DNA of 43,264 nucleotides. Origin: Actinomyces timonensis DSM 23838. GTDB taxonomy: Bacteria; Actinomycetota; Actinomycetes; Actinomycetales; Actinomycetaceae. Where the stretch lies: NCBI RefSeq assembly GCF_000295095.1, contig NZ_JH806633.1:700187-743450 (forward strand). The letters run 5' to 3'. Position numbers and translations under genes: made by a program. Under the pieces are notes generated by a model. It was given only the letters and a program-made list of their open reading frames with translations. It did not search any database and was not told where the DNA came from. Below, piece after piece: positions 1 through 18,763 of this stretch (position 1 is the first letter of the stretch; each line of letters begins with the position of its first letter).

Positions 1-3000
1 GCGCGGTTGAGTCCGTTGAGCCCCTTGCCAGTGGTCATCACATTGGCGCTCGCGACGACGGCGACGTCGCACTCCCCACGCTCAATACTGCCCACCGCCT
101 GGTGGAAGGCGACCAGACCCGACGAGCACGCCGTGTCGACAACCAGCGCTGGCCCTTTCAGGTTCAGGAAATAGGACAGCCGCCCCGCGAGCATGGCGCT
201 GTGGTTCGATGTCACGTTGTCGTTCTCCCCGACGACATCGGCGAACTCGCCGGACTCGGCGCCCACGAAGACCCCGACCCGCTCCCCCGAGACAACCGAA
301 GGCCCCACCCCCGCGTCCTCCATCGCGTGCCACATCTCCTGCAGCAGCAGCCGCTGACGCGGATCCATCACCTCAGCCTCACGCGGAGCGATCTCGAAGA
401 ACAACGGGTCAAAACGACCCACCGACTCCAGCCACCCACCCACAGCACCACGAGCACGCCCCCACCACGGACCACGCTCCACAGGCACCGGACCCAGCGC
501 AACACGCCCCTCCCGCACCAACGACCACAGCTCATCCACACCAGCCGCACCCGGGAACACACCCGCCATCCCCGACACAACCACACCAGCACCAACCACA
601 CGCCGATCCACACTGGGCTGCTGCGAGCGCGGCGCGGAGGAGGCTGGAGCCTCGGGCCCGAACTGCTGGGGCGACGGCTCAGCCTCGTCGCTGTCAGCGC
701 CAGGAGCGCTCGTCACTGGCGGCAGAGGCGCGCCCGCGGCACGCCCGGTGCTGCGCCGCCTCAGGGCTGGTGCGGCGACAGGACCACCGGGGCTCTCGTC
801 CGTGCCAGGGCCAGAGCTGACTACGCGCTGCACCAGGTGCTCAGCAAGCGCCTTGACGGTCGGGTGGCTGAAGAACACGTCGGGAGCCACGGTGGCACCC
901 AGCTGCTCGGTGATCATGCCGGACAGCTCGACGAGTGAGATGGAGTCAAGCCCCATGTCATGCATGGACACGTCCAGCGCCACCTCCGCTACCGGCAGGC
1001 GCAGGAGCTCGTGGAGCATGTCCGCCAGGGCGCGCTCGATCTCCCCCACCCCGCGCTGGCGGCTCCCCTCCTCTGGCGAGGCGGGCCCGTTCCCAGAAGT
1101 CTTCCTCGCGCCCCCGCTCCCCTGACGGGGCGTGGGCAGGGCGGCCAGGACCCGGTCGACGTCCCCCTTGACCACCGCCATGCTCCGGCCGGAGGAACCA
1201 GCCACCTGGCCCAGCACGCCCACAGCCTCGTGGGGAGGCAGCGGGGACTGCCCCGTCGCTGCCAGCATGAAGGATGATTTATCCGTGTCTTCCTGCCCGA
1301 CACCGATCTCGGCCCACAGCGGCCAGGCGATGCTTGTGCCGAGCCCGTTGGCCGCCAGCGCGGCCAAGTAGCGGTTGCCGACCGCGTACTCGCAACTGCC
1401 GAAGTCACCCAGGTGGGCGGCGGTGGAGGAGCACCACAGGACGTGGTTGGCACCAGCCTCGGCGGCCGCACGGGCCAGGGCCGCTGCGGAGTCGAGCCGC
1501 AGGCGCAGCGACATGTCGACCTCACGCGGGTCAGCCTCGGGCATTGAGGGCAGTGGACCGGGGCCGGCAGCCCACACAACACCCTGCAGGCTCCTCTCGG
1601 CCGCTACCGAGGCGACCAGAGCAGAGAGGTCGGTCGGCACGCCCAGATCCACGCCGCGGTAGTCGATCCCCTCAAGACCAGCCGCGTGGAGGGACTCCTC
1701 AGCATCATCCAGGCTGCGGCGGCCAGCGCCGACGATACTGGCGCCAGCCTGCTGCAGCCACCTGGCGATCGAGGAGCCGATCCCACCCGTGACCCCGAGG
1801 ACAAGCCAGGAGCCCTCAGGAGATGGCAGAGGCTCGGCGCTATCAGGACTCATGCGCTCCCCGGCGAGCGTCATCAGCCCTTCGCCGCTGAGCATCGTGG
1901 CTCCAGCGGCGGGGTCGAGCGCCGCTGCCACCTGAGAGCGCCACGCCGAGCCGGCCAGGACCTCTTCATCGATGACAACTGGGTGAACCTGCCAGTCCGG
2001 CACCACCCTGCCCACAGAGCGCTCGAAGCCGACCAGGGCCTCACAGTACGCGCGCGCCTGCGGCGTCACCGCCGAGGAGACCAGGAACACCGCTGGCGGG
2101 TCCCCTGCCTGCTGGGCCAGCGCGGCCAGCATCCGCCACGACGCCGCCATTGTCTCGGCGTCCCACGGCCCGTGTGTCCCGCGCAGGTCAAGCACAGTGC
2201 TCACGTGCTGGGAGGTCGCCTCGCGAGACACCACATCGGCCTGGTCGTCGGAGGCGACGATGACACGACCCGCGAACGGGGCGCAAGCCTCACGCCACGC
2301 GGGCACCGTCTCCGGCTCCGCCCCGACGAGCAGCACGTCGCCGAGCCGAGGGCTGCGGCGCCCGGAATCGACGACCCACCGTTCCTGGACGAGCCCAAGA
2401 TCCTGCGGCCAGGTGAAGGAGGGGGCCTGTGCGTGGGACTCCACGCCAGAGGAGGCGCCACGGGCCCGGTCGCTGCCCAGCTCCCCTTCCAGGTAGCGCC
2501 TGGCCACGGCCTTGCGGCTGAGCTTGCCAATGCCATCGCCGCGCAGCGTCCCGGGCGGGACGAGGACGACCTCGTGGACAGACAGTCCGTGCGACTGTGA
2601 GAGGGCGACGACGCTGCGCTCCCTCAGCCCGGCTCGCTGTCTCTTGCCCATGCTGTCGGGGATCTCCTGGACGACGACGACGCGCTCACGATCGTCGATA
2701 TCACAGGAGATGACGCAGGTATCCAGCCCCTGTGGCAGGTCGGCACCCTCACGCAGCGACAGCTCCAAGTCCGCCGGATCATAGTTCATGGCGTTGATGA
2801 TGATGACGTCGCTCTCGCGACCGACGATGAAAAGCTGCTGATCATGAATGACAGCGAGGTCGCCAGTGCGGTACCAGCGCCCCTCCTCAGAGCTGGTGAA
2901 CTGGCGTCCGGTCAACTCCGGGTTGCGCCAGTAGCCGGAGGAGGCGCTCCCGGACAGGACGTGGAGCTCACCCACACGATCCTCACCGAGATCGTGTCCC

Positions 3001-4142
3001 TGGGCATCGCGGACCTCGAGGCGGACGTGCCCTCGCGGGGCGCCGCACGAGGGCACGTCACGCGTGCCCTCCGCCCCCGGCTCCCGGAACTCAGCGCACC
3101 CACGTCGCAGCGACGCACGATCCAGGCTGATGAACTCGACAGGGGCCTCAAGCCTGGAGCACGTGACGCCGCACATCTCGGTTGACCCGTAGTGCACGCT
3201 CAGCACGTCGCGTCGCAGCCCCCAGGGCGCGAAGGTGGCGTGGAACTGCTCTACCGTGTCACGCCGGACGCACTCCCCAGCAGTCAGGACAGTCCGCACC
3301 GAGGCCAGGGAGACATCGTCGTCCAACTGCGCAGCACCGTGGCGGATGGCGTGGTCAAGCGCGAAGTTGGGCGCTGCCGTGTGAGTGGCGTGCCTGGTGG
3401 CGAGCAGGCGCAACCACCTGTCCGGGGCCTCGATGAAGGCCGCGCTGGGCATGAGGAGCACCGGGCACCCTGCCAGCAGGGGGCCGAGGAAGCCCACGCT
3501 CATGCCGAAACTGTGAGACAGCGGAAGCCAGCTCACCACGCTCGACCCCTCGTCCACCTGCCACAGAGAGGTGCAGACACGCATCTCGGAGAGGATGCTG
3601 CGCCGGGTGTGCTGGACACCTTTGGGAGCCCCGGTCGACCCTGAGGTGTACAGCAGGATCGCGACCTCGTCCCAGCCAACTTCCCGGGGAGGTGTCTCCT
3701 GGGCATCGTCCTGCCGGGGAAGCGCAGCGGCATCCACAATGTGCTCGGCCATGCCCTGGAACCGGCTGACGTAGGCGGAACTGGTCAGTACCACGGTTGG
3801 TTCGGCGTCAGACACGATGTAGGCAGCGGCTGGCGAGAGCGCCTCGGAGTGGTCGAGCATCTCAGGCGAGAGGGGCACCGCGACCAGACCCGCGTACTCG
3901 GCGGCGAGCAGGGCAGCGATGAAAGTGCTGCCATAGGGCAGGCCGATAAGCACGCGGTCACCCGGCGATGTGCGCTCCTGGAACCAGCCGGCGAGCGCCG
4001 TCGCCCAGCGAGCCGCCTCGGAGCCGGTCAGCGTCTCCAGCACAGAGTCTCCGTCGCTGAACGACCAGGTCAAGCGGTCTCCGTGGTCCCTGCACATCGT
4101 GGCCCACGGCTGCTGCGCAGTGGTGTCTGCAGAATCGTTCAT
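1..4142 (-). CDS. Polyketide megasynthase, FAAL-KR-ACP-KS..., C-terminus beyond left edge
   Basis: The frame stays open from the ATG at 4142 to the window edge, giving about 1380 visible residues. An N-terminal fatty acyl-AMP ligase-like domain (about 1-560) shows the core motif LYTSGSTGAPKGV near residue 165, RTGDL near 427 and a C-terminal GKLSRK near 538. The run IIINAMNYDP after the hinge is FAAL-like. A ketoreductase follows (about 578-970) with VTGGIGSS near 786 and the catalytic Tyr in EYAVGN near 917. An ACP has GLDSISL near 1066 (phosphopantetheine Ser). A ketosynthase starts near 1184, with active-site DTACSS near 1336. No KS precedes the first KR and no AT is seen, so the first part looks like a loading module that activates a carboxylic acid, reduces it and passes it to the first KS. 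An AGAGAGGG ribosome site lies 7-8 bases upstream. Further modules and the product are unknown. Confidence 0.9.
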   Translation of the reverse strand, partial: MNDSADTTAQQPWATMCRDHGDRLTWSFSDGDSVLETLTGSEAARWATALAGWFQERTSPGDRVLIGLPYGSTFIAALLAAEYAGLVAVPLSPEMLDHSEALSPAAAYIVSDAEPTVVLTSSAYVSRFQGMAEHIVDAAALPRQDDAQETPPREVGWDEVAILLYTSGSTGAPKGVQHTRRSILSEMRVCTSLWQVDEGSSVVSWLPLSHSFGMSVGFLGPLLAGCPVLLMPSAAFIEAPDRWLRLLATRHATHTAAPNFALDHAIRHGAAQLDDDVSLASVRTVLTAGECVRRDTVEQFHATFAPWGLRRDVLSVHYGSTEMCGVTCSRLEAPVEFISLDRASLRRGCAEFREPGAEGTRDVPSCGAPRGHVRLEVRDAQGHDLGEDRVGELHVLSGSASSGYWRNPELTGRQFTSSEEGRWYRTGDLAVIHDQQLFIVGRESDVIIINAMNYDPADLELSLREGADLPQGLDTCVISCDIDDRERVVVVQEIPDSMGKRQRAGLRERSVVALSQSHGLSVHEVVLVPPGTLRGDGIGKLSRKAVARRYLEGELGSDRARGASSGVESHAQAPSFTWPQDLGLVQERWVVDSGRRSPRLGDVLLVGAEPETVPAWREACAPFAGRVIVASDDQADVVSREATSQHVSTVLDLRGTHGPWDAETMAASWRMLAALAQQAGDPPAVFLVSSAVTPQARAYCEALVGFERSVGRVVPDWQVHPVVIDEEVLAGSAWRSQVAAALDPAAGATMLSGEGLMTLAGERMSPDSAEPLPSPEGSWLVLGVTGGIGSSIARWLQQAGASIVGAGRRSLDDAEESLHAAGLEGIDYRGVDLGVPTDLSALVASVAAERSLQGVVWAAGPGPLPSMPEADPREVDMSLRLRLDSAAALARAAAEAGANHVLWCSSTAAHLGDFGSCEYAVGNRYLAALAANGLGTSIAWPLWAEIGVGQEDTDKSSFMLAATGQSPLPPHEAVGVLGQVAGSSGRSMAVVKGDVDRVLAALPTPRQGSGGARKTSGNGPASPEEGSRQRGVGEIERALADMLHELLRLPVAEVALDVSMHDMGLDSISLVELSGMITEQLGATVAPDVFFSHPTVKALAEHLVQRVVSSGPGTDESPGGPVAAPALRRRSTGRAAGAPLPPVTSAPGADSDEAEPSPQQFGPEAPASSAPRSQQPSVDRRVVGAGVVVSGMAGVFPGAAGVDELWSLVREGRVALGPVPVERGPWWGRARGAVGGWLESVGRFDPLFFEIAPREAEVMDPRQRLLLQEMWHAMEDAGVGPSVVSGERVGVFVGAESGEFADVVGENDNVTSNHSAMLAGRLSYFLNLKGPALVVDTACSSGLVAFHQAVGSIERGECDVAVVASANVMTTGKGLNGLNR

Positions 4143-4195
4143 GACTATTGCCCTCTCTGAGTGAATAGACACATGGCCGCTGTGCCACGGCTGCC

Positions 4196-4843
4196 TCACA
4201 GGTCGGCGCGCTCGAAGCGTGTGGCGGATACGCGCAGGGCGACGGCGTTGACCAGGACGAAGAAGACGGCACCCGCCCCCAGGACCACCAGCTGGTGGCC
4301 CAGGTGCTGGCTCCCGGTGGCGTTGAGGGCCTCACCAGGCGCGCCTCCCAGGTGCGCGCCGACCTCGGCAGCGGTCCCGACCAGCGAGGCGGCCAGGGAC
4401 GCCAGTGCCACCGGCACGCCCAGGCGCGAGCCCGTCCTGAGGAACATGGGGAAGAACACCGAATTGAACACCCCGAACACCACCAGCCCCACGCCCAGCA
4501 GCGCGATATTGGCCTGCACCCCCACCGGGTTGCGCTCTGGCGAGATCTGGTAGCGGACAAGGATGACCGGTATACAGGCCACCACCTGGGCGATCTCGAC
4601 TATCCAGGCCAACTCCATGTAGCTGCGGGCGATATCACGCTTGCGCACAGGCAGCAGCAGGGAGAAATACACGTCATGGTTCTCCCGCACGCCCTGGAAC
4701 ACGAAGTACAGTCCCAGCACCTGGTACAGGAACACCATCACATAGGGGTACTGCGGAACCATGAGCAGCAGCACCAGCGCCAGGAAAAACCATGTCACCG
4801 GAATATTCACCAGCCGCAGGCTCTTGCGCACCATCGGGGTCAT
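4196..4843 (-). CDS. ABC-2-type transporter permease of the polyketide operon
   Basis: A 215-residue membrane protein with about six hydrophobic segments, for example FFLALVLLLMVPQYPYVMVF near the N-terminus and VLGAGAVFFVLVNAVAL near the end. The motif LLLPVRKRDIARSY after the second segment resembles the small ABC-2 permeases of the ABC2_membrane_5 type, where a cytoplasmic loop carries LPVxRxxIV. Its ATG overlaps the ATPase stop codon as ATGA, so the two genes are probably translationally coupled and form one transporter. It lies inside the polyketide operon, 53 bases before the FAAL megasynthase, which suggests export of the product or self-protection; the substrate is not known. It has no binding-protein partner, as expected for an exporter. 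Confidence 0.82.
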   Translation of the reverse strand: MTPMVRKSLRLVNIPVTWFFLALVLLLMVPQYPYVMVFLYQVLGLYFVFQGVRENHDVYFSLLLPVRKRDIARSYMELAWIVEIAQVVACIPVILVRYQISPERNPVGVQANIALLGVGLVVFGVFNSVFFPMFLRTGSRLGVPVALASLAASLVGTAAEVGAHLGGAPGEALNATGSQHLGHQLVVLGAGAVFFVLVNAVALRVSATRFERADL

Positions 4844-5715
4844 GACTGCTTCTCCTGACGCTCAAGATGGACAATGATGTCGTTGAGGCTGGCCGGCGTG
4901 ACCTCCAGCCCACGGATCCCAGCCACCGCGGCCTCACCCAGCCGCGAGGCCTCGACCAGACCCGTCACGCGCCCCTGGCTCCGGCTGGCACCGATCAGCA
5001 CGGATCCCAGCCCAGATGGCACCGTCTCAGCAGGACCTGAGACCATGCGGTAGTGAGCCGCGAAATCCTCCAGAGTCCCGCTGGCGCGTACCCGCCCCCG
5101 GGACAGGTAGGTGACATCGTCAGCGATCTGCTCCAGGTCACCCATCTGGTGGGTGGAGAACAGCAGGCCGACACCCGTGTCGTCGACAAGCTCGCGCAGT
5201 TCGCGCAGCAGGTCGTCACGCGAGAGCGGGTCCAGCCCGCTGGTCGGCTCGTCGAGCAGCAGCAACTCAGCACGACGCGACAGCGCCAGCGCGATCCCGT
5301 ACTTGACCCTCATACCAGCCGACAGCGCCTCGATCTTCTTGTCCTCCACCAACTCGAAGCGCTCCAGGCAGTCCCGGTAGACCCGCTCGTCCCAGAGGGG
5401 AAAGAACCGCCTGTAGACGTCGGTGATCGTTCTCAGCCGCCTTCGGGGGTAGAAGGCCACCTCGCCCATCGAGAACGACACGCGCCTCATGACCTCGTGC
5501 TCACGTCCCCGGAAGTCCTCGCCGAAGAAGCGCACCTCACCGCCATCAGGGCGGATAAAGCGCAGAACAGCCTTCAGCGTCGTGGTCTTACCGGCCCCGT
5601 TACGGCCAATAAAGCCCATCACACGGCCAGCACCCACCGACAGGCTGACATCCTCCAGCGCAAAACCTGGATACCTCTTGGTCAGTCCCCTGACCTCAAG
5701 AATCGGACGGGACAT
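4840..5715 (-). CDS. ABC transporter ATPase of the polyketide operon
   Basis: An ATP-binding subunit of about 291 residues. It shows a Walker A motif (GRNGAGKTT), a slightly divergent signature (LSAGM), Walker B with D-loop (LLLLDEPTSGLD) and a switch His (STHQ). The C-terminal 60-70 residues are an accessory region of the kind seen in BcrA/YtrB-like drug-export ATPases. Two starts are possible: GTG at 5718 and ATG at 5715. The ATG is preferred because AAGGAG lies five bases before it but only two before the GTG. The start overlaps the stop of the upstream synthase as TGATG, and the stop overlaps the permease start as ATGA. It probably energises the permease at 4196-4843 for efflux of the polyketide or an intermediate. 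Confidence 0.88.
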   Translation of the reverse strand: MSRPILEVRGLTKRYPGFALEDVSLSVGAGRVMGFIGRNGAGKTTTLKAVLRFIRPDGGEVRFFGEDFRGREHEVMRRVSFSMGEVAFYPRRRLRTITDVYRRFFPLWDERVYRDCLERFELVEDKKIEALSAGMRVKYGIALALSRRAELLLLDEPTSGLDPLSRDDLLRELRELVDDTGVGLLFSTHQMGDLEQIADDVTYLSRGRVRASGTLEDFAAHYRMVSGPAETVPSGLGSVLIGASRSQGRVTGLVEASRLGEAAVAGIRGLEVTPASLNDIIVHLERQEKQS

Positions 5716-8603
5716 CACTTCTCCTTTCCTCGCGCCAAGCGGAACACGATCCCCTGAAACCAGACCGCCACCTGCCCCGAGACACCGCTCAGCACCACAT
5801 CCACCCCATCTTCAGATACCCGGGCACGGATGACGCCTTCAGCGGGAACAGGGCCCCGGACACCGATACGGCGCGCGGCAGTGGGAAGGGGCTCCAGGTC
5901 CGCGTGGTGCGGCAGGGCCAGCCACGCGAGGTCGATGGCCCGGGTAGACACATAGACGTCGCAGGAGACGTTGCGGCCGCGCCCGTAGAAGTCCGGCTGC
6001 GTCACGAACCGAGCCGTGCGGTGCTCGGGCATCTCCCCAAGGCCAGTAACGCAGTCGTAGCCCCCACCGCGGACCGCGCCGAGCGCATCGAGCTCCTTGT
6101 CCAGAGCCGTTGCGCTCCCCTCCGCGCTTATCGGCGCTCCGAGCACGGGAGGCCGATCGTCCCGCAGGGGCCTCGCTGAGGCCTGGAACAGCACTCCGCC
6201 ATCCTGGCCATCGAGCACGTCAAGATCCACGCGTTCCTGGTCCGCGCTGCTCAGGACAGTGCGAGTGCTCCTGATCGCGTCACGGGACAGCATCATCGGC
6301 TCGCCCCAGGCGACGTCCTCGAGCATCAGACCGGAGCCCGCGCCACGCACAGAGGCGGCGTAGCAGAAACGGGCGACCTCCAACCACGCCGCGGCAGGCA
6401 CGCAGGCCGCGCGACGCAGCGTGTGCCAACGCACCACAGGCATCCGCGCGTCCCACGCGGACTCAAAGCTCTGCTCAGTGAGGTCACTGGAGTTGCGCAG
6501 CACGAGCGCGTGCAGGCGTTGAGGAGCCGTCGCTCTCACGGCTGATGCCTCAAGCCGGTGACGCTGGCGCTCGAACGGGTAGGCGGGCAACGGCGAACTG
6601 GCAGAGTCCACCGCTGACCACGGCGTGGTCCGGCCCTCGACCCAGTCCCGCAGAAGGTCGTCCGTCGCGCCGGGAAGACGGGCCAGCGCCGTATGCGCCT
6701 CCTCTTCCTCGGAGGGGCGGATGACGGAATCTGAGCGAGGGGCCCTTCCGACGAAGATGCCGTCACTGGCTCCCCGCAGAAAGGCGCCGATGCGCTCTCG
6801 GGCGCCCGCCGCGCCACCCGCGCCGAGTGCCAGGCGGTGCTCCATCGGCTCGGCGGCCATGAGGGCCAAGGCCTGGCGCTCCAGCTCGGAGCGGTCCATG
6901 CCCTCAAGCAGCCCGTACAGCTGCCTGGCCCGCTCCTCAAGCGCCCTCCTGGAGCGCGCTGACAGGAGAAGCGGCACCTCCCCGACGATCGTGGTACGCG
7001 GTTGATCAGGCCTGGGCGCCGTGGTGACAACGGTATGGGCGTTGGTGCCGCCGAAACCGAAGGAGCTGACGCAGGCGACGCGCCGGCGGCCTGGAGCCTG
7101 CGGCCAAGGCGAGTTCCTCTCCGCGAGGCCTACGACTCCCCCGCCCAGGTCCAGCTGGGGGTTGATGGCCCGAAAGTGCCCCAGCCCAGTGACCGTCTCA
7201 TGCTCCAGGCACATCACCGCTTTCATCACTCCCACCAGGCCAGCTGCTGACTCCAGGTGGCCCACCACCGTCTTGGCCGAGGTCAGCAGGACGGGCTCGT
7301 CCCTGCGCCCAGAGTGACGCAAGGCGTCCACCAGCGCCTCAACCTCGATCGGGTCGCCCAGGGGTGTGCCAGTGCCGTGGCACTCGACCATCCCCACCTC
7401 GTCGGGGGTGACGCCAGCATCAGCAAGGGCACGACGCACAAGGGCTGCCTGCGCCCTCGGGTCCGGCGCCCGCAGCGATCCGGTCCTGCCGTCGTGGTTC
7501 GATGAAGTCCCCAGGATGACGGCGCGCACACGCGAGCCGTTGGTGTCAGACAGGCGTCGCAGCACCAGGGCTGTCACGCCCTCCGAGCGAACGTAGCCGT
7601 CGGCGGCAGCATCGAAGGTCCTGCACTGACCGCCCTTGGACTGCATGCCCGCCAGGTTGTTGCACATGAGCTCCTTGGCCGAGCCTATGTAGTTGACTCC
7701 CGCCACGACGGCGGTGTCCACCTCCCTCGCGCGCAGCGCGCGGACAGCGAGGTGCAGGGCGACGCTCGATCCCGAGCAGGCTGTGTTGACAACCATGCTA
7801 GGTCCGTGGAAGTCGTAGAGGCGCGAGATACGGTTAGCCAGCATTGCCGGGTGCAGGCCCGAGTCAAGATGGCCAGCGTAGGTGTCGGCCGAGCCCGGAA
7901 CATGGGAGGAGACATCGTTGTAGTCGACGAGGTGCGCCCCGACATAGACGCCGACACTGCTGCCGCGCAATGACGACGGCCGCAGCCCGGCGTCCTCCAG
8001 AGCGTGCCAGACCACCTCGATCAGGCGGCGCTGCTGCGGATCCATCGACTGGGCTTCAAACGGGGCTATACCGAAGAAGGCCGCATCGAACTCATCCATG
8101 CGCTGGGTGATCCCGGCTCTCATTGGCAGGTCGGCGACGTCGTCGTGGTCACGAAGATGCTGCTCGACGAGCCAGGGCCTGACAGCCTCGATTGTCGAGA
8201 CGCAGTCGCGCTGCTCCACCAGAGCCTGCCAGAACTCCTCAGGGCTCTGCATGTCTGGCGGTAGCTGGCAGGCCATGCCCATCACCGCGACCTCACGAGC
8301 GTCGTCTGCCCCGCGCTGCTCGTCTACGCCGCCGGCGGCGTCGGCGCGCTCGGCAGGAGGCTCCCCCAGCAGCCCGGCAAGGACTTCTGAGAGATCGTCA
8401 AGCACCGGGTGCATGAAAAGCTTTCCCGCGGAGACCTCGAGACCGAGACGATCACTGATACTGCGCGCGACCTGGATGTAGTCGACGGAGCTGAGCGCGA
8501 GCTCGCCGAGGGAGCCGATCTGCTCGCGCCCGTGCAGCCACGGCCTCAGCACCTCCCCGAGCGCGGCGCGCACAGCCCCCGCCGTTTTGGGGTTATGGGT
8601 CAT
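5715..8603 (-). CDS. Trans-AT polyketide synthase, ACP-KS-DH-like
   Basis: A 962-residue protein. It opens with an ACP (about 10-80), with the carrier Ser at about 39 in LALSSVD; the usual Asp before that Ser is also Ser. The ketosynthase (about 104-540) keeps the full triad: Cys276 in NTACSGSS, His409 in ECHGTGTPLGD and His449 in VGHLESAAG. No acyltransferase follows it. The C-terminal part (about 700-955) resembles a double-hotdog dehydratase: a His near 726 in HTLRRAACVP matches HxxxGxxxxP except that Gly is Arg, and an Asp near 891 in AIDLAWLALPH sits where the second-half Asp is expected. Whether it dehydrates is uncertain. The ATG overlaps the hydratase stop as ATGA. The N-terminal ACP probably completes a module begun on another protein. 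Confidence 0.9.
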   Translation of the reverse strand: MTHNPKTAGAVRAALGEVLRPWLHGREQIGSLGELALSSVDYIQVARSISDRLGLEVSAGKLFMHPVLDDLSEVLAGLLGEPPAERADAAGGVDEQRGADDAREVAVMGMACQLPPDMQSPEEFWQALVEQRDCVSTIEAVRPWLVEQHLRDHDDVADLPMRAGITQRMDEFDAAFFGIAPFEAQSMDPQQRRLIEVVWHALEDAGLRPSSLRGSSVGVYVGAHLVDYNDVSSHVPGSADTYAGHLDSGLHPAMLANRISRLYDFHGPSMVVNTACSGSSVALHLAVRALRAREVDTAVVAGVNYIGSAKELMCNNLAGMQSKGGQCRTFDAAADGYVRSEGVTALVLRRLSDTNGSRVRAVILGTSSNHDGRTGSLRAPDPRAQAALVRRALADAGVTPDEVGMVECHGTGTPLGDPIEVEALVDALRHSGRRDEPVLLTSAKTVVGHLESAAGLVGVMKAVMCLEHETVTGLGHFRAINPQLDLGGGVVGLAERNSPWPQAPGRRRVACVSSFGFGGTNAHTVVTTAPRPDQPRTTIVGEVPLLLSARSRRALEERARQLYGLLEGMDRSELERQALALMAAEPMEHRLALGAGGAAGARERIGAFLRGASDGIFVGRAPRSDSVIRPSEEEEAHTALARLPGATDDLLRDWVEGRTTPWSAVDSASSPLPAYPFERQRHRLEASAVRATAPQRLHALVLRNSSDLTEQSFESAWDARMPVVRWHTLRRAACVPAAAWLEVARFCYAASVRGAGSGLMLEDVAWGEPMMLSRDAIRSTRTVLSSADQERVDLDVLDGQDGGVLFQASARPLRDDRPPVLGAPISAEGSATALDKELDALGAVRGGGYDCVTGLGEMPEHRTARFVTQPDFYGRGRNVSCDVYVSTRAIDLAWLALPHHADLEPLPTAARRIGVRGPVPAEGVIRARVSEDGVDVVLSGVSGQVAVWFQGIVFRLARGKEK

Positions 8604-9448
8604 GCCTGGCCCCCGATCGTCCCCATCGCGCCGGAACCCGGCCTGTCCGCCAGGTCACGCTCCCTCTCCGTGCGCGAGCAAGGACCTGCTCCCGCATCCT
8701 CCACCTCCCACGGCATGAGGCCGCGGGAGGTGAACGCGCTGATACGCGCCCGTACCCGAGAGTCGGCGAACCGGGACCTGTTCGCAGCGACAGCCAGCTC
8801 CCGGTAGGACTCCACCTCGGCGGCCTGGGCGGCATAGGTCTTATAGGCGGTCACCGCGTCACGCGGGACGCGACGAAGCCTCGCGAGAAGCCGTCCCAGG
8901 GCAACCTCACTGCGCGCGTCATACACGTCCACCAGGCCCCAGGCGGCAGCTGTTTCCACATCGATAGCACGCGTCGAGAGAGTCATGAAGTGGGCACGGT
9001 GCCACCCCACCCGGCGGGCGAGAAACGGCAGCACCATTGCTGGCATGAGGCCGAAGAGCATCTCCGGGAGCGCGAATGCCGCAGTCATGTCGGCCACGAC
9101 GATGTCCGCTGCCGCAGCGAGGCCAACGCCTCCCGCGCTCGCACGACCGCGGACGTGACAGACAATGATCACGTCACTCTCGATCATTTCGGTCCAGAGC
9201 TGATACACCCTCTCAGGGGCATGGTCATACTCGCTGTTCGGGCCAGCGACCAGCGAGAGGTCGGCACCGGTGCAGAAGACCTCCGGAAGACCGCGCAGCA
9301 CCAGGACACCGGTCTCCCTCCTCGCTTGAGCGAGGCCCTCCTCGATGCCGTCGAGCATCACGCCATCCAGCGTGTTGTCGCGCTCAGGCCGGTGAAGAGT
9401 GAGCCAGGTCACTCCGTCACGATCCTCAAGACTGGTTGCCGACGTCAT
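8600..9448 (-). CDS. Enoyl-CoA hydratase-family protein, PksH/ECH1-like, beta-branching
   Basis: A 282-residue crotonase-fold protein. The oxyanion-hole region FCTGADLSLV, the segment SAGGVGLAAAADIVVA and the stretch LPEMLFGLMPAMVLPFLARR are visible. The last, with the nearby FMTLSTRAIDVETA, resembles the ECH1 (PksH) branch, which dehydrates an HMG-type intermediate on an ACP, rather than the decarboxylating ECH2 branch. The open frame extends upstream to 9553, but the ATG at 9448 is preferred: it forms an ATGA overlap with the AT-ER stop, and the upstream extension is low-complexity Arg/Gly/Ala-rich sequence lying over the AT-ER coding region. Together with the Ser-type KS at 11675-12877 it suggests beta-branching of the polyketide. 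An ordinary CoA hydratase role is possible but less likely in this setting. Confidence 0.82.
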   Translation of the reverse strand: MTSATSLEDRDGVTWLTLHRPERDNTLDGVMLDGIEEGLAQARRETGVLVLRGLPEVFCTGADLSLVAGPNSEYDHAPERVYQLWTEMIESDVIIVCHVRGRASAGGVGLAAAADIVVADMTAAFALPEMLFGLMPAMVLPFLARRVGWHRAHFMTLSTRAIDVETAAAWGLVDVYDARSEVALGRLLARLRRVPRDAVTAYKTYAAQAAEVESYRELAVAANRSRFADSRVRARISAFTSRGLMPWEVEDAGAGPCSRTERERDLADRPGSGAMGTIGGQA

Positions 9449-11637
9449 GCGCGACGCTCCGCGACCAGCGCTGCGGCCGCTTCGTACAGATCCCGGTTGA
9501 TCCGCCCCACCTGGCGCCGGCGCCAGTCTTCGAGATCGGTGCCCTTGACCCACGAGTTGAAGGCGCCCATGGCCGGCCCGGATGGGACGAGGTAGTCCAC
9601 CTGACGATCGGGGTCACCCTCAATCGCCAGGACAGCGCAACGGTCGAGGTGCGCCCGGAAGACTGCGGCCATCACCATCCGTCCGTCCTTCTCACCAGCC
9701 TCGAGCGCTCCGGCGGACTCGGCGCGGGCCCGGGCGTCGGCGAAGCTCTCACCCAGAACACGTCGCTCGACCTGGTCGCGCGTCCGCTCGTCCACCTCGT
9801 CCCAGGACGTGAAGCGCTCGTAGATGTCGCGCAGGCGCTGGGCACGTGCCGCGAACAGCACACCTCGACGCATCACCTGCATCCGCGTGCCCAGTTCGAA
9901 GGCAACAGCCGACGGCGCGTCAGTGGTGTCCTGGATCTCACAGGCGGCAAGCATGTCCTTGACATGGTCACTGGTGGCAGCCTCAACCGTGCACTGGTTG
10001 ATAGAGCCAGTCATGACGAACTCCGCGCCCATGACCAGCGCCGCCGCCACTGCCTCGGGGGCGCCCAGCCCTCCTGACAGCCCCACCGGCAAAGGGTGCG
10101 CCAGCCCCCGGGCAAGGGCCTCGTCACGAAGCCTGATGAAAGTGGGGAGGACCGCCATCGCGGGAGCGTGGTCAGTCACCCAGCCGCCCTGCGACTCCGC
10201 GCACAGCCAGCTCGCTGTCGCGACGTCGGCCGCGAGCCGGCCCTCCGTCTCAGTCAGCCGACCACTGCCCACCAGCCGGGAGACCATGTCAGCAGGAGCA
10301 GGCGCGCAGAAGCTCCTGGCCACTTCCGGACGCGAGGTCTTGCACAGGATCTGGTGCGGTAGCACCACCCCATCCTTGCCCCGGGTCGCGCCGCTCAGGC
10401 GGAAACGGACGAGGGAGGGGGACACGCTCACGTAGCCCGAGGCCTCCAGCCAGGGCACTCGGTGACGGAGCGCGACGTCGACCAGCGCGGCTTCGCGGTC
10501 CGGGTCACGCCAGGAATGGGAGACAGCGAGCGCCCAGTCCCGCTGCCCCGCCAGAGCGGCCGTCCTCACAACACGCTCCTCAACCTCCTGGAGGCTGAGA
10601 CCCTCTGTCCCGAGCACGGCCAGGACACCCTCGGCCGCAGCCGCGGCGACAAGCTCCGGACCGCTGACTCCGCGGTGCATACTGCCGCACACCATTGGCA
10701 GGGACTCGGATGGCTCCGACGACGCCGCTCCATCCTGCCCCGGTTCCCCAGGCTGCGAGCCCGGAGCCGAGTCACCCTTCTCCACCAGCGGCACCGCGTC
10801 ACGCTCGATGGAGCGCTGCAGTCCGGTCAGAACAGATCCTGGCCCCACCTCAGTGAATGTCGTCACACCGCGGCCCATCAGGTAGCGCATCGACTCGCTC
10901 CACCGCACGGGGCTGGAGATCTGGCGCGCAAGCGTTTCCGCGATTTCACCGGGCACGTGCGGACGGGCTGTCACATTGGCCACCACGGAAAACCTCGGCG
11001 GGTTGAACGTCATTCCTGAGATGTAATCAGCGAAATCCGCCCGGGCGGCCTCCATGTATCGGGAGTGGAAGGCGCCACTCACATTGAGCGGAACGTAGCG
11101 GGCACCGTGCCGCTCAAACACCTCGCGGGCGCGCTCGACATCGTCCGCCATGCCCGCCACCACGCACTGCCTGGGCGAGTTGATGTTCGCCAGGTCGATA
11201 GTGTCAAGAGCCTCCTCCTTCATCACCTCCCGCACAGCGGTCTCGTCAAGGCCAAGCACTGCGGCCATACCACCGCCACGAGCCTGGGCCATAAGCGCTC
11301 CACGTCGCTGCACCATGCGCAGACCAGTCTCGAAGTCGAACACCTCAGCGGCGAAAAGCGCCGCGAACTCGCCGAGGCTATGACCGGCGACGAAGTCAGG
11401 GACGGTCTTGCCCTCATCGCGACACCGCAGCCACGACAGCGCGTCGACCGTGTAAAGGGCGGGCTGGGTGAACTCGGTGCTGGAGAGCTGCCCTTCAGGA
11501 TCCTCGACGCACAGCCTCTCCAAGGAGTATCCCAGGATGTCGTCAGCAGCAGCGACCTGCTCCGGGTACCGACGGAACAGGTCAGCCCCCATCCCGACAT
11601 GCTGGGAACCCTGACCCGGGAACAAGTAGGCGATCAT
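9445..11637 (-). CDS. Trans-acting malonyl acyltransferase fused to PfaD-type enoylreductase (AT-ER)
   Basis: A fusion of about 730 residues. Residues 1-285 are a FabD-like acyltransferase: FPGQGSQ at the start, nucleophile Ser87 in GHSLGE, the carboxylate-binding Arg (about 112, in VQRRGALM) and the His of SGAFHS. It should load malonyl onto ACPs of synthases that lack their own AT. After a Ser/Pro/Gly-rich linker, residues 325-730 form a PfaD-like flavin enoylreductase related to 2-nitropropane dioxygenase, with LSGGLGAPEAVAAALVMGA and MTGSINQCTVEA. The same AT-ER order occurs in trans-AT pathways such as bacillaene (BaeE). The open frame continues upstream to 12243, but that extension lies over the KS gene and reads as non-protein. 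The ATG at 11637 has GAGGAG upstream and begins right at the FabD consensus. Confidence 0.92.
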   Translation of the reverse strand: MIAYLFPGQGSQHVGMGADLFRRYPEQVAAADDILGYSLERLCVEDPEGQLSSTEFTQPALYTVDALSWLRCRDEGKTVPDFVAGHSLGEFAALFAAEVFDFETGLRMVQRRGALMAQARGGGMAAVLGLDETAVREVMKEEALDTIDLANINSPRQCVVAGMADDVERAREVFERHGARYVPLNVSGAFHSRYMEAARADFADYISGMTFNPPRFSVVANVTARPHVPGEIAETLARQISSPVRWSESMRYLMGRGVTTFTEVGPGSVLTGLQRSIERDAVPLVEKGDSAPGSQPGEPGQDGAASSEPSESLPMVCGSMHRGVSGPELVAAAAAEGVLAVLGTEGLSLQEVEERVVRTAALAGQRDWALAVSHSWRDPDREAALVDVALRHRVPWLEASGYVSVSPSLVRFRLSGATRGKDGVVLPHQILCKTSRPEVARSFCAPAPADMVSRLVGSGRLTETEGRLAADVATASWLCAESQGGWVTDHAPAMAVLPTFIRLRDEALARGLAHPLPVGLSGGLGAPEAVAAALVMGAEFVMTGSINQCTVEAATSDHVKDMLAACEIQDTTDAPSAVAFELGTRMQVMRRGVLFAARAQRLRDIYERFTSWDEVDERTRDQVERRVLGESFADARARAESAGALEAGEKDGRMVMAAVFRAHLDRCAVLAIEGDPDRQVDYLVPSGPAMGAFNSWVKGTDLEDWRRRQVGRINRDLYEAAAALVAERRA

Positions 11638-11674
11638 AGAAGAAGACTCCTCATTATCAGAGCTATCAGAACGG

Positions 11675-12877
11675 CTAGACACGACTGAAGACCAACGAGG
11701 TGCTGAGTCCCCCGAAGGCGAAGGCGTTGGAGACGATGTGACGCACTGGTCCGGGCTGCGGCAGCGTCGCGACGCGCGGCCCCAGGGGATCCTCAACGGG
11801 AGAGGCGTGCACCCGCTGAGCGGAGATCTGCAGCACCGAGGCGACAGCCTCCACCAGGGACGCGGTGCCGAGCGAGTGTCCGACAAGGGCCTTGGTGGCC
11901 TGCAACCACGGCCCCTCGCCGAAGACCTGCTGCACCGCCGCCCACTCGACCTCGTCGCCCTGAGAAGTACCCGTCGCGTGCATGTTGACGACGTCGACCT
12001 CTTGCGGCGCCACACCCGCTGCGGCCAGAGCGCTCCGCATCGCGCCGACCTCCCCATCGAGGGCTGGGAGGGTGCCTCTCCGCGCATCGTTACGGATCCC
12101 GAGACCAGCCAGCCGTGCGTGGACGGGCTGGCCACGTCGAGTCGCGTGGTCCGCGGACTCCAGGACCACGGCCGCGCTGGCCTCTGCCAGCACGAATCCG
12201 TGACGTGAACGATCCAGCGGCAGGCCCGGTCGGTCCGGGCCACTCAGCACCCCGACATTGGCGAAACCTTGGACAAGGGCCGGGAGGAGGCCGTCGAGCG
12301 TCCCCACGACCACAGCCATGTCGCACGCGCCGGCAGTGATCGCACGCGCCGCCGCGACAAGAGCGCAGTTGCCCGCAGCCGATGCTCCTCCGACAACAAG
12401 GCACTCCCCCCGGGCATCGCACGCCTCGGCCACTCCGGCCATGACATCCGTGGCCCACAGCCTCTGCACCACGCTGGGGCGCACCGCCTCCGGCCTCCGC
12501 GCGAAGGCGCTGCGCATCTCCTCGACGACCTCGGCCGTGGTCCTTTCCCCCGCCAGGAACACTCCGAGGCGGTCAGGGCGCACCTGGCGACCACCAGCAG
12601 CCGCCAGCGCCTCCCAGGCCGCAAGGACCGCCCAGTGCAGCGCCGCTCCGGCCCGACGGGGCAGGACGGTACCTTCAGGCACCGCGCCACGCGCCTGCAG
12701 CACTGCGAGCCGGTCAGCCGGTTCCTGCTCGATCCGCGCGACGCATGAGGAGCCGTCCCCCGGAACGGGAATGGCCTGTCCACGCCACAGCAGTGCCTCG
12801 AACTCGGCAGCGCCACAGGCCTGCGCGGCCTGCACGCCCACCCCCGTCACCACAACGGGCACGAGCCGTTCAGGCAT
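11675..12877 (-). CDS. Ketosynthase homologue with Ser for active-site Cys, probable decarboxylase of beta-branching cassette
   Basis: A free-standing KS-fold protein of about 400 residues. By eye alignment with FabF, the catalytic Cys position is Ser166, in VVGGASAAGN; its codon is TCG, read from positions 12382-12380. Both catalytic His residues remain, in NMHATGTSQGD and ALVGHSLGTAS. A Cys-to-Ser KS with intact His residues is the hallmark of the decarboxylating KS of HMG-CoA synthase cassettes (PksF, CurC and relatives), which makes acetyl-ACP from malonyl-ACP. The start at 12877 is chosen because ATGCCTGA overlaps the upstream stop; an ATG at 12907 would add ten residues of Arg-rich sequence. 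Its donor ACP and HMG-CoA synthase partners are not in the window. Confidence 0.88.
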   Translation of the reverse strand: MPERLVPVVVTGVGVQAAQACGAAEFEALLWRGQAIPVPGDGSSCVARIEQEPADRLAVLQARGAVPEGTVLPRRAGAALHWAVLAAWEALAAAGGRQVRPDRLGVFLAGERTTAEVVEEMRSAFARRPEAVRPSVVQRLWATDVMAGVAEACDARGECLVVGGASAAGNCALVAAARAITAGACDMAVVVGTLDGLLPALVQGFANVGVLSGPDRPGLPLDRSRHGFVLAEASAAVVLESADHATRRGQPVHARLAGLGIRNDARRGTLPALDGEVGAMRSALAAAGVAPQEVDVVNMHATGTSQGDEVEWAAVQQVFGEGPWLQATKALVGHSLGTASLVEAVASVLQISAQRVHASPVEDPLGPRVATLPQPGPVRHIVSNAFAFGGLSTSLVFSRV

Positions 12878-13811
12878 GGTGCGCCCGGGCCGCCAGCTGC
12901 GCGACACGTTCCACCTCCTCGATCTCTTGGTGAAACGGGGTCATGACCGCGCGCGTCGTCAGACTGCGGTCCGCCAGGCGCAGCGCTGCGGCCAACCCAC
13001 CGCCCGGAGAGAGGTCGATCACGAGACGGCGCTCCCGGCTCGGTAGCGACATGACCGTGTCGACGAGACGCATCGGCAGGCGCAGCGTCGCATAAGGATC
13101 CGGCAGGTGGGCCTCGACCTTCTGGGCGGTAGCGCAGCGCAGCACGCTGACGTCACCAGGAGGCTCCAGCCTCACCGGCTGGAGACGAGGCGCCAGGCAC
13201 GCGACATCTGGAGTGTGGAAGGCGTGCGGCACCGGCAGCACCGTAAGGGTCAGCTCCTCCTCCACCGCGCGGTCTCGCACTTCGCGCCACTGCCCGTTGC
13301 GTCCGGCAATGACCACGTGGCGATCGCAGGTGAACGACACCAGATCGACCCGAAGGCTGCGCGCGAAGGCGGGCAGAGACTTCTGCCCGTCGCCCAGGAG
13401 CGCGGCCATCCAGCCCAGAGGCATCCGACGAGTCGCGTCAGCAGCGAACTCGAGCACATAGGCCAGCGCCGAGTCGAACGTCAGTCTTCCCGCGACCACG
13501 AGGGCGATGAACTCCCCCAACGAGCTGCCCACAACAGCGGACGGAACGACGCCATGCCGCCCCAGCGCCGCGGCAAGCCCCGTCTGCGTCGCCAGCAGGG
13601 CCGCAGAGGAGAGCAGGAGATCGTCGCACGGGTCCTCGACGCGCCTGGATGGGTCGTAGATGTAGTCGAGCACACTCAAGCCGTACTGAGAGCGGGTCAC
13701 CGAGTCAGCCAGGTCGCACCTGGCAGCGAAGTCCGGGGAGCTGTCATACAGCCGAGTCCCCATCCCGAAGTACTGACCGCCCTGTCCGCCTACAAGGAAG
13801 GTCACCGACAT
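12870..13811 (-). CDS. Acyltransferase-like acyl hydrolase (editing-type, trans-AT system)
   Basis: A 313-residue FabD-fold protein with the N-terminal GGQGGQ, nucleophile Ser97 in VVGSSLGEF and the His of PHAFHT. Two features differ from malonyl transferases: the residue before the nucleophile is Ser rather than His, and the position of the malonyl-binding Arg is Phe (about residue 122, in LEFAADATRRM). Without that Arg the enzyme is unlikely to select malonyl. It fits the acyl hydrolase (AH) class of trans-AT clusters, which removes stalled acyl groups from ACPs, as PedC does. It is the first gene of the operon. No strong ribosome site is seen before the ATG, only GGTGGG. A transferase for a different acyl group remains possible. 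Confidence 0.82.
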   Translation of the reverse strand: MSVTFLVGGQGGQYFGMGTRLYDSSPDFAARCDLADSVTRSQYGLSVLDYIYDPSRRVEDPCDDLLLSSAALLATQTGLAAALGRHGVVPSAVVGSSLGEFIALVVAGRLTFDSALAYVLEFAADATRRMPLGWMAALLGDGQKSLPAFARSLRVDLVSFTCDRHVVIAGRNGQWREVRDRAVEEELTLTVLPVPHAFHTPDVACLAPRLQPVRLEPPGDVSVLRCATAQKVEAHLPDPYATLRLPMRLVDTVMSLPSRERRLVIDLSPGGGLAAALRLADRSLTTRAVMTPFHQEIEEVERVAQLAARAHHA

Positions 13812-14068
13812 GGCGCGCCCACCGGGAGTCGAGCAGGCCAGTCTGAGCGCACCAGCGCAGATGCGACGCGTGGCACCAGGCTCCGGATACCCGTCCCCCC
13901 TCCACCAACGGCGCAGCCATAGTCACATGCCATGCGGTCAGGAAGGTCAACGTGGTCGGCACGACAACGGGCAAGGAGGGAAGCACCGCTTTGGAAGGCG
14001 GCGTCCGTGACAGCCCGAGCATTCGGCCCCTGACCCCGAACAGGATGAGCGCTAGCAGAATCAAGGCA

Positions 14069-14115
14069 GTCTGCCGCCTGGGTGGCAGCCACGTGGCAGA
14101 CGCTTATATTTAAGC
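14069..14115. repeat. Inverted repeats next to the candidate polyketide promoter
   Basis: Two inverted repeats lie side by side: GTCTGCC/GGCAGAC with a 19-base spacer, and GCTTA/TAAGC around TATT. The second overlaps the proposed -10 box, so it could be an operator; the first would lie around the start of transcription. Confidence 0.4.
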
Positions 14116-14134
14116 CTTCTTGAATCTTGAGCAA
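14107..14134 (-). promoter_or_regulatory. Candidate promoter of the polyketide operon
   Basis: On the minus strand, TTGCTC (14134-14129) and TAAATA (14112-14107) are separated by 16 bases, resembling -35 and -10 boxes. The -10 lies within an arm pair GCTTA/TAAGC (14102-14115) and beside a 7-bp inverted repeat GTCTGCC/GGCAGAC (14069-14075 and 14095-14101). Transcription from here would give a leader of nearly 300 bases before the acyl hydrolase gene. This rests on sequence resemblance only. Confidence 0.35.
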
Positions 14135-14372
14135 ATGGACAGCAGACAGGGAGGAACAAACCTCACGGGTGGACGTCATAGCCCTTACTCCTTGAGAGGT
14201 GTACAGGGAACGCGCCAGCACCGAGGCGACCATGCTCGATCGCCCTAGTGCAAGACCCGAGCAACGTTAACAGCCCCAACATCGCACGTCAAGGGGGGTG
14301 GGATCCGTAGTTTGGCGGCAATTCCCGCGGGGTTCGCGCTCGCGGAGGCAGTTGCGGTCAGGGAATGAGGAC

Positions 14373-14434
14373 GGCTATCGCGGAAACGTGAGCTTATCGA
14401 CCAAGATTCATCGATAGGGCGGTCCCGCGATGCC
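14373..14434. repeat. Nested inverted repeat of unknown role
   Basis: The outer arms are GGC-T-ATCGCGG (14373-14383) and CCGCGATGCC (14425-14434), complementary over ten bases with one unpaired T. Inside them, TATCGA (14395-14400) and TCGATA (14411-14416) form a second perfect pair. It lies outside any gene and could be an operator, a structured RNA or an old element end. Confidence 0.45.
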
Positions 14435-14631
14435 TGGGAATCGGCCAGATCGGCGCTTTTCGCAGAAGTCTGTCAATCCCCGGGTTTGTGGAGGCTTGTT
14501 TATCTGGTTCCGGCTAATGGTTGTGGGTCGTGATGCGCCGACGCCAAGAGGGCGTAGAGGGGGCGGGGCCTGGCCGTCAGGATCGGTGATGCTCAAGTCG
14601 CCCAGTCCGTCCAGGAGAGGACCCGCCGCCC

Positions 14632-14790
14632 ATGACACACCGTCACGCGCCGCTGACCCCGAGGGCAGCCACAGGCTCGTGATGCGCATCGAGGCCGGCC
14701 GCCCCATCGCCCACGTCGCCGCCCAGGCGAAGGACTCCAAGCGCGGCGCCGGCAGGCGCGTGGACCGCACTCACATCCACACCGCCTGTT
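14632..14790 (+). pseudogene. Remnant of an insertion-sequence transposase (IS481-like N-terminus)
   Basis: An ATG at 14632 begins MTHRHAPLTPR, then hits a stop after 16 codons. In another frame the reading continues as HRLVMRIEAGRPIAHVAAQA, the expected next part of an IS481-type helix-turn-helix N-terminus. After that the similarity ends. It is thus a truncated, frameshifted fragment without catalytic residues. A possible left end, beginning TGTCAATCCCCGGG, lies at 14471, but no matching right end was found. The assignment rests on memory of IS481 N-termini. Confidence 0.55.
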
Positions 14791-14858
14791 ATGACCAACC
14801 ACCCGCCGCCGGAGTCCACGCCCGCGTCACCAATGTCATGGCCTCATGCACCTCGCCG

Positions 14859-14880
14859 GTGTGCTACGGTCATTTATGTG
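14859..14880 (+). promoter_or_regulatory. Extended -10 promoter giving a probably leaderless response-regulator mRNA
   Basis: TGCTACGGT (14862-14870) matches the extended -10 form TGnTAnnnT common in actinobacteria. Its last base lies seven bases before the GTG at 14878, the normal distance to the transcription start, so mRNA would begin at or next to the start codon. No ribosome binding sequence precedes this GTG, which fits leaderless translation. Confidence 0.5.
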
Positions 14881-15588: not shown

Positions 15589-15618
15589 CGGGCCCGCGCG
15601 TGGGCCAGGGATGTCAGC

Positions 15619-15669
15619 CTCGACCATATCTCAACCGTTGGCCTGGTCCGCCTCGACCGTTTCTCAACT
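15619..15669 (+). promoter_or_regulatory. Two pairs of direct repeats, probable response-regulator operator
   Basis: Four heptamers lie at 15619 (CTCGACC), 15630 (CTCAACC), 15652 (CTCGACC) and 15663 (CTCAACT). Members of each pair start 11 bases apart, and the two pairs are 33 bases apart, so all face the same side of the helix. This is the spacing used by OmpR/PhoB-family dimers. The last heptamer overlaps the -35 position of a candidate -10 box TATGCT (15679-15684), as for a typical activator. Confidence 0.6.
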
Positions 15670-15678
15670 TTTCCCTCA

Positions 15679-15684
15679 TATGCT
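15679..15684 (+). promoter_or_regulatory. Candidate -10 box of the ABC transporter operon
   Basis: TATGCT stands 10 bases after the last direct repeat, and the expected -35 position (around 15656-15661) shows no consensus, as is usual for promoters that need an activator. A start near 15691 would leave a leader of about 50 bases ending in AAGGAGG before the ATG at 15744. Confidence 0.45.
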
Positions 15685-15743
15685 GGCGCCGCATTCCGCA
15701 CCCCGGGATGCTGCTGAACAGAAGCTTGCGGTGAAGGAGGATT

Positions 15744-17517: not shown

Positions 17518-17552
17518 CCCTCTGAGCCGCGCGCCCTTCTCGAGTGCGTCTC

Positions 17553-17561
17553 TGCTAGTGT
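17553..17561 (+). promoter_or_regulatory. Candidate extended -10 promoter for the histidine kinase
   Basis: TGCTAGTGT fits TGnTAnnnT. It lies 75 bases before the kinase start, in the 118-base gap after the permease gene, so the kinase may have its own transcript in addition to read-through. Confidence 0.4.
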
Positions 17562-18746: not shown

Positions 18747-18763
18747 TAATCCGGTCTGACGCC

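Follow-up and report, generated by a model that had tools for sequence, protein, structure and literature searches.

Which kind of polyketide assembly line is encoded at the left end of a 43,264-nucleotide stretch of Actinomyces DNA, and how did it come to lie there? The stretch (the window) corresponds to positions 700187–743450 of contig C2 in a genome of 2.93 Mb and four contigs (G000), and a window coordinate is the C2 coordinate minus 700186. The genes in question all lie on the minus strand within window 1–13811 and form the upstream quarter of a polyketide synthase (PKS) cluster that continues for about 45 kb leftward. A preliminary description had named a fusion of acyltransferase and enoyl reductase (AT-ER), an acyl hydrolase (AH)-type AT, a Ser-type ketosynthase (KS), an ECH1-like hydratase and two KSs without an in-cis AT, and had read them as a trans-AT pathway in a host of the Actinomycetaceae. 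The named genes were all confirmed, one of the two KSs lying in the protein at 5715–8603 and the other, at the left edge, in that at 3–4199. The sequence makes it very probable that this part of the window belongs, as its upstream quarter, to a trans-AT PKS cluster on an Actinomyces genomic island, building a branched polyketide. The assignment to the trans-AT class is supported because a discrete AT-ER and an AH-type AT are present, no live in-cis AT is found in the readable parts, the KS phylogeny agrees, and a full HMGS cassette accompanies the synthase.

The host, as the preliminary description had proposed, falls within the Actinomycetaceae, in the genus Actinomyces and close to Actinomyces denticolens. 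The AT-ER of A. denticolens DSM 20671 (taken here to be genome G006), the nearest named relative found, is 98% identical to that of the window. In 18 kb of unrelated sequence the two genomes are 83–90% identical over their main matching pieces, and the window genome is therefore an Actinomyces species other than A. denticolens; G008 and G016 are equally distant (83–91%). The further Actinomyces genomes referred to by label are G009, G013, G025, G030 and G048.

Discrete acyltransferases and ketosynthase phylogeny

The AT-ER gene (9445–11640, minus strand) encodes a discrete AT with GHSLGE, AFHS and the malonyl Arg, followed by a PfaD-type ER, and malonyl transfer is its predicted activity. The open reading frame (ORF) spans 9445–12243, with the true start likely to be at MIAYLFPGQ, the earliest one consistent with the family. 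The protein scores 345 bits with the fabD model and 432 bits with the PfaD model, the latter under the cut-off of 449. The second discrete AT, of AH type, is the product of the cluster's first gene (12870–13811, minus strand) and shows GSSLGE and FHT without the malonyl-binding Arg. A passage of PMC11775670 gives as marks of AHs a G(A/S/V)SL motif and the loss of the malonyl Arg, usually to Gln or His; the motif is present here and the Arg is gone, but the column holds Phe. Pfam returned no in-cis AT in the readable pieces between the KSs, where only the terminal protein, PksE, holds a dead remnant. An in-cis AT right after the left-edge KS, which the preliminary description had raised as a possible counter-argument, was looked for in the genome continuation and not found; the stretch there shows no AT likeness in profile comparison.

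The 13 extender KSs are distributed over six proteins, with one in the 5715–8603 protein, two in PksA, four in PksB, three in PksC, two in PksD and one in PksE. KSs of fewer than 380 residues or less than 200 bits were dropped before a first tree of 77 rows, which was built without the G13 copies and L015; in the later set the threshold was 180 bits. The later tree of 88 rows included KSs of the bacillaene, macrolactin, thiomarinol, leinamycin-type, kalimantacin-like and Methylosinus clusters, the names of which are in part our assumption, and 13 cis-AT rows. It left out the G13 copies, the rows of L015, L017, L050, L059 and L060, the two PksA halves and nine named reference rows. Ten of the 11 full-length KSs of the cluster fall inside a trans-AT clade of 73 rows with a support of 99 in the Shimodaira-Hasegawa-like approximate likelihood-ratio test (SH-aLRT), the terminal KS of PksE, outside the window, being the sole exception. 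The left-edge KS could be placed as a half only: in the first tree the halves of PksA KS1 and KS2 grouped with PksB KS1, KS3 and KS4 (98). The Cys-His-His triad is kept in all 11 full-length KSs. In pairwise scores PksD KS1 reached 499 bits with the AT-less KS 4tkt versus 379 with the cis-AT CurL; entry 7zma heads these score lists because two stretches are summed for it.

Beta-branching cassette

The five-component cassette for beta-branching is complete. Two components lie in the window on the minus strand, namely KS0 (11675–12907), which has GGASAAGN where KSs have DTACSS, and the ECH1-type enoyl-CoA hydratase (8600–9448; NF005498, 270 bits, cut-off 250), the ORF of which spans 8600–9553 with a likely start at 9448. 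The other three lie at the far end of the cluster: HMGS (C2 658656–659906), ECH2 (C2 about 657896–658636) and a donor acyl carrier protein (ACP; C2 about 657609–657857), the last two identified by homology search of the cluster's own genome. The donor ACP is AcpK-like (E 5e-10), with NSVDRADII corresponding to DSVDRAEII in AcpK, and none of the 14 module ACPs scored against AcpK was singled out as a donor. The ECH2 is 46% identical (E 6e-67) to the N-terminal region of a thiomarinol PKS protein, which we take to be an ECH2. Scored against ECH1 from the thiomarinol, bacillaene and Eleftheria clusters, the hydratase of the window reaches 156–204, and against ECH2-like frames 21–24. A retained carboxyl branch, considered on the premise that donor ACP and ECH2 were missing, was rejected once the own-genome searches had found both.

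According to a passage of PMC10006238, a Trp flag marks the ACPs at which beta-methylation occurs and has strong predictive value, though it is absent in virginiamycin and leinamycin. The pattern occurs in one of the 14 module ACPs, PksB ACP5 (GLDSVVGVEW). Among the references it was found only in bacillaene (two ACPs), thiomarinol (three) and Eleftheria (five), with no match in macrolactin, the cis-AT loci, the leinamycin-type locus, Methylosinus (which has an HMGS), G030, G013, G048, G009 or G025. PksC KS1, which directly follows the flagged ACP5, is sister to the bacillaene KS that directly follows the two flagged ACPs of that pathway (support 98 in the 77-row tree and 99 in the 88-row tree). 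These two lines, the Trp flag and the kinship of the next KS, place the predicted branch at PksB module 7. The branch would be a methyl branch because ECH2 is present, bryostatin and leinamycin being described in a passage of PMC12560621 as keeping the carboxyl and lacking a trans-acting ECH2.

A dead acyltransferase in the terminal module

PksE (C2 659903–664627) is composed of KS, AT remnant, dehydratase (DH)-like part, ACP and thioesterase (TE). Its residues from about 560 to 880, between the KS and the DH-like part, align with the AT of DEBS in two short stretches (joint E 1.6e-6). Comparison of GVEPSLVTGCGGGAMAAAVLAGLVDL in PksE with GVEPAAVVGHSQGEIAAAHVAGALTL in DEBS shows that the catalytic Ser and the preceding His are lost, GHSxG having become GCGGG. 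The terminal proteins of G030 and G013, the KS parts of which are 45–46% identical to that of PksE, have AEGDGD in the same region. The three-row alignment of these regions scored 62.7 against an AT profile in HHalign (95.5%), and PksE alone scored 43.3 (81%), whereas the score did not exceed 20.9 in 40 column shuffles or 19.9 in 12 inter-domain stretches from elsewhere in the cluster and was 13.4 for the reversed alignment; two true AT-like proteins scored 172 and 267. In print, no report of a similar dead-AT remnant was found among the matches listed, and a passage of PMC11775670 states that of the KS-AT linker only a remnant persists in trans-AT KSs.

Between G030 and G013 the remnant differs by 13 synonymous and 7 non-synonymous changes, and its ratio of non-synonymous to synonymous substitution rates (dN/dS) of 0.18 (KS 0.12, TE 0.18) points to selection on it. 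Between G000 and A. denticolens there are one synonymous and three non-synonymous changes (ratio 1.1), too few to judge, with no sign of constraint.

Two origins of the terminal module are evenly balanced in our judgement. PksE may be a true cis-AT module that was captured whole and the AT of which died later, or it may belong to a basal KS lineage that kept an ancestral AT remnant. Its KS groups, with the terminal KS of G030, among the cis-AT rows and outside the trans clade supported by 99. The best listed plasmid matches of KS plus remnant, which cover residues 3–628 of 824 and reach the position of the lost motif, also speak for capture, and one of them that was examined (H82, Streptomyces albidoflavus) is a KS-AT. 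Against capture, a tree that keeps all 65 non-cis rows together was not rejected by the approximately unbiased (AU) test (p 0.47), so that a position between both classes is equally allowed and a true cis-AT KS in PksE is not proven; this test also left out the Methylosinus rows, TMP_11086, ELE_44485_KS6, ELE_28438_KS4 and G25.

A type B dehydrating bimodule consists of KS-ACP-KR // KS0-DH-ACP with a non-elongating second KS, where KR is a ketoreductase. The terminal pair of the cluster has the order ACP-KR // KS-DH-like-ACP, but the PksE KS keeps its Cys-His-His and the DH-like part of PksE lacks HxxxGxxxxP, and this assignment was rejected. Tentatively, and with rather less than even confidence, the terminal module can be described as a transitional fossil: a cis-AT module that was drafted early enough to be common to two otherwise different Actinomyces clusters, and the AT of which lost its Ser and His and was then selected as a scaffold, perhaps one that docks the discrete AT. 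If this is true, the switch from cis to trans becomes open to study module by module. The dead AT makes the origin of AT-less assembly lines testable on two natural versions.

Island boundaries and exchange between species

In G016 and G008 the site is empty: the sequence corresponding to C2 654302–655250 joins that at 718949/718950 directly, with an overlap of about 50 bases. These contiguous flanks therefore set the bounds of the island at C2 655251–718949 (63.7 kb), covering window 1–18763, and its right end (18763/18764) adjoins the 3′ end of nusB (18764–19330, minus strand). The G+C content is 69.0% in the cluster and 71.8–72.0% beside it. At the left end, C2 655198–655250 of G000 imperfectly repeats some 50 bases of the nusB 3′ end, with a local score of 35 versus a maximum of 30 among 300 random stretches. 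Such a copy at the far end of the island is what integration at the end of a gene would be expected to leave. The island ORFs that were scanned with Pfam include no integrase, and a tRNA was detected in neither L009 nor L012.

G000 and A. denticolens are 97.4–100% identical per kb over 657–719 kb, a block of about 62 kb at about 99%. Exceptions within it are the bin at 714 kb (92.6%) and those at 697 and 700 kb (68 and 79%, partial matches beside N stretches); some bins are without data. Beyond the block the identity is 79–97%. Synonymous divergence (dS) follows the same pattern, with 0.004–0.030 in the 12 island genes compared, from the short-chain dehydrogenase/reductase (SDR) gene to the histidine kinase gene, versus 0.08–0.28 outside the block in nusB, carA, a pyrBC-like gene, an NmrA-like gene and the gene at C2 720865; efp is at 0.03. 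The block of about 99%, set between flanking blocks of 86–93%, reflects a recent exchange of the whole cluster between two Actinomyces species. The phosphopantetheinyl transferase (PPTase) and metallophosphoesterase genes lie inside the island as judged from the empty sites and have a dS of 0.13–0.14, which places the start of the exchanged block just inside the left end of the island. The island, or its left end, thus seems to have been present in both species already when one copy replaced the other.

The 92.6% dip corresponds to window about 13815–14814 (C2 714001–715000), between the AH and response regulator genes. Where the high-identity block ends on the right, between the histidine kinase gene and nusB (window about 18630–18750), lies a long GC-rich inverted repeat (GGCGAGCCGCAGG...CCTGCGGCTCGCC), which may be a terminator or a small mobile hairpin.

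Searched with the AT-ER protein at E 0.001, all 49 genomes of the genus give a match, in nearly every case a weak or partial one to other ATs, and full-length matches of more than 600 bits occur in four (G000, G006, G013 and G030). The PfaD family (TIGR02814, E 1e-30) was detected in 2 of 151 sampled family genomes (G000 and G030), in one of 36 genera. In a control set of 14 genomes Bacillus subtilis was the one positive, as expected. PKS-like frames with KSs were also seen at G048:C1:484320–509426 and on G009:C14 (L059, L060, L083–L085), with a separate AT 42–43% identical to the cluster AT and no match to the ER part. Trans-AT loci with AT-ER fusions occur in other actinobacteria as well, namely in Virgisporangium aurantiacum (L016, also with HMGS and ECH) and in a Propioniciclava metagenome-assembled genome (L017, with AT-AT-ER).

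Organization of the remaining genes

In the order of transcription on the minus strand the window encodes the AH-type AT, KS0, AT-ER, ECH1, an ACP-KS-DH protein, an ABC ATPase, an ABC-2 membrane protein and the start of PksA. The ACP-KS-DH protein (5715–8603) has an intact KS triad (TACSG, CHGTGT, VVGH), a degenerate DH and an ACP whose match is slightly below the Pfam cut-off. The preliminary description had mentioned neither the ABC transporter genes (4196–5718) nor the FAAL-like loading domain. The former encode an ATPase (4840–5718, minus strand; PF00005, 86.4 bits) and an ABC-2 family membrane protein (4196–4843, minus strand; PF13346, 41.6 bits). The 5′ part of pksA (3–4199, minus strand) comprises the loading domain, which resembles fatty acyl-AMP ligases (FAALs), a KR, an ACP and the first half of a KS, and the gene continues to C2 696058.

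Over its full length pksA occupies C2 696058–704385 (minus strand), its second half consisting of KS linker, degenerate-DH-like stretch, ACP and KS. The stretch after the linker of the left-edge KS has about 300 residues without a Pfam match and is read as a degenerate DH. Window 45–608 is 91% identical in DNA to C2 697282–697845, between the two KSs of PksA, a likely sign of recent duplication or gene conversion in the assembly line. Beyond pksA follow pksB (C2 683412–695666; DH-like stretch-ACP, KS-DH-KR-ACP, KS-ACP, KS-ACP, KS-ACP), pksC (C2 672343–683415; KS-DH-KR-ACP, KS-DH-KR-ACP, KS-DH) and pksD (C2 664446–672350; KR-ACP, KS-ACP, KS-ACP-KR). Module 1 is read as a split KS-DH // KR-ACP by analogy with PksC, which ends in KS-DH, and PksD, which begins with KR-ACP; the FAAL would charge the ACP of the 5715–8603 protein. 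The genes at the far left end encode the SDR (C2 656887–657612), the metallophosphoesterase (C2 655977–656828) and the PPTase (C2 655276–656031).

To the right of the cluster, still inside the island and on the plus strand, are genes for a response regulator (14791–15588), an ABC transporter ATPase (15744–16745) and a histidine kinase (17636–18571), together with an ORF without a Pfam match (16717–17517) that from its position is probably the partner permease. The preliminary description, which ended at the first gene of the cluster, had not included the response regulator, ABC ATPase and histidine kinase. These four genes are probably a set for sensing and for export or self-protection.

Discussion

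The gene content can be explained by the following pathway. The FAAL-like domain would activate a carboxylic acid starter, and elongation would begin on the split module KS-DH // KR-ACP. The AT-ER protein would load malonyl onto the ACPs, its ER reducing selected double bonds. At PksB module 7, KS0, HMGS, ECH1, ECH2 and the donor ACP would convert a beta-ketone to the methyl branch, and three DH-KR modules would act after it. The chain would then pass the ACP-KR // KS-DH-like terminal pair, where the dead AT is probably retained as a structural part, and be released by the TE. The response regulator, histidine kinase and ABC genes of the island probably sense and export the product.

Several observations weigh against this account or parts of it. 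The KS of the 5715–8603 protein, although inside the trans-AT clade of the 88-row tree, is long-branched there, and its score is higher with the cis-AT CurL (340 bits) than with the AT-less KS 4qyr (294). In the 77-row tree the PksA halves and PksB KS1, KS3 and KS4 branch basally on the trans side and are separate from its main group; the three PksB KSs fall inside the trans clade once the Eleftheria, Methylosinus and further cis-AT rows are added. PksA contains 1844 bases of N in two stretches, including residues 1400–1644, so that its AT scan covers the remainder of the protein and its KS1 and KS2 were read as first halves. AH is the best name for the second discrete AT, but hydrolysis is unsure because the position that is usually Gln or His in AHs is Phe here and because, in the passage on PksD in PMC11775670, Q124A inactivated that enzyme. 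The N-terminus of PksA matches FAAL models best, yet under their curated cut-offs, and in the third DH after the branch, at the end of PksC, HxxxGxxxxP is replaced by HxxxGxxxxA.

If the cluster were a cis-AT PKS with decayed ATs, degenerate and without a working trans-AT line, the dead AT of the terminal module and its KS, which scores 442 bits with DEBS versus 328 with the AT-less KS 4zdn, would be as expected. We regard this as very improbable, since the discrete AT has full motifs, ten of the 11 full-length KSs are of trans type, the 12 other inter-domain stretches show no AT likeness, and the frames are open with dN below dS. A PKS island that is silent or non-working here, and present merely by recent transfer, is a somewhat more serious but still unlikely rival: 62 kb are near-identical in two species, which leaves little time for selection to show. 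The cluster ORFs read are nevertheless all uninterrupted. Compared with A. denticolens, dN is lower than dS in all 12 island genes compared (in the response regulator nearly equal) and in pksE, with few changes in each, and the ratio is well below 1 in pksC (0.0027/0.016) and pksD (0.0031/0.009). A functional trans-AT line that makes a branched polyketide remains our preferred reading.

Comparison with known trans-AT systems

The preliminary description had likened the gene set to bacillaene or pederin, which holds for the class only. The bacillaene synthase, which we take from its gene order to be encoded at L065/L066 of Bacillus velezensis DMB05, also has an AT-ER, an AH-type AT, a donor ACP, HMGS and ECH1. 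It differs in an additional discrete AT, nonribosomal peptide synthetase (NRPS) genes, two flagged ACPs versus one here and another module order. A plasmid of Eleftheria terrae (NZ_CP106953, about 538–602 kb; L099/L100) holds what is, judging by its gene set, presumably a kalimantacin-like trans-AT cluster, also with KS0, HMGS, ECH1, an ACP and an ECH2-like gene. In the tree, KS2 of this cluster is sister to PksB KS1, KS3 and KS4 (100), and the best plasmid match of PksB KS4 (49.9%) lies in the cluster. This cluster differs in having AT and ER in two frames, in its carbamoyltransferase, FabV and methyltransferase genes and in its betaproteobacterial host. In the leinamycin-type cluster of Streptomyces sp. 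NBC_01361 (L064), annotated with an LnmK-family gene, the AT-ER is 46% and one KS 55% identical; it differs in an NRPS gene, LnmK and the lack of a Trp-flag ACP by the pattern used. In the plasmid collection, searched with the AT-ER and three KSs, no record reached at least 60% identity, so that the match to a characterised cluster considered in the preliminary description did not appear there.

A second trans-AT cluster of the genus is present in two other Actinomyces species (G030:C1:2200412–2259522, L053–L055 and L081; G013:C3:1603–60697). Its AT-ER is 48% identical and it has the same terminal pair, ACP-KR // KS-AT remnant-DH-like-ACP-TE. It differs in its locus, in having AH-AT-ER in one protein and in the absence of a flagged ACP, and no HMGS, KS0 or ECH was seen among the matches listed. 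Nosperin is presented in a passage of PMC12184294 as a trans-AT-related (pederin-type) line that acquired a stretch of KS-AT from a pathway of cis-AT type, the KS and AT being homologous to nosB, and a dead AT is not mentioned there. Lines mixing trans-AT with live KS-AT parts are known.

For Actinomyces, no description of a trans-AT pathway was found in open-licence PMC among the matches listed. According to passages of PMC8549736, MIBiG then held one Actinomyces cluster, and the Actinomyces genomes of that study contained eight polyketide biosynthetic gene clusters. Some trans-AT clusters may have been counted there without description, because trans-AT is pooled under PKS. The cluster also occurs in the type strain A. 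denticolens DSM 20671, which offers a direct route to the compound. Set beside these systems, the class is known and the member is new, the fossil AT and the exchange between species being the interesting parts.

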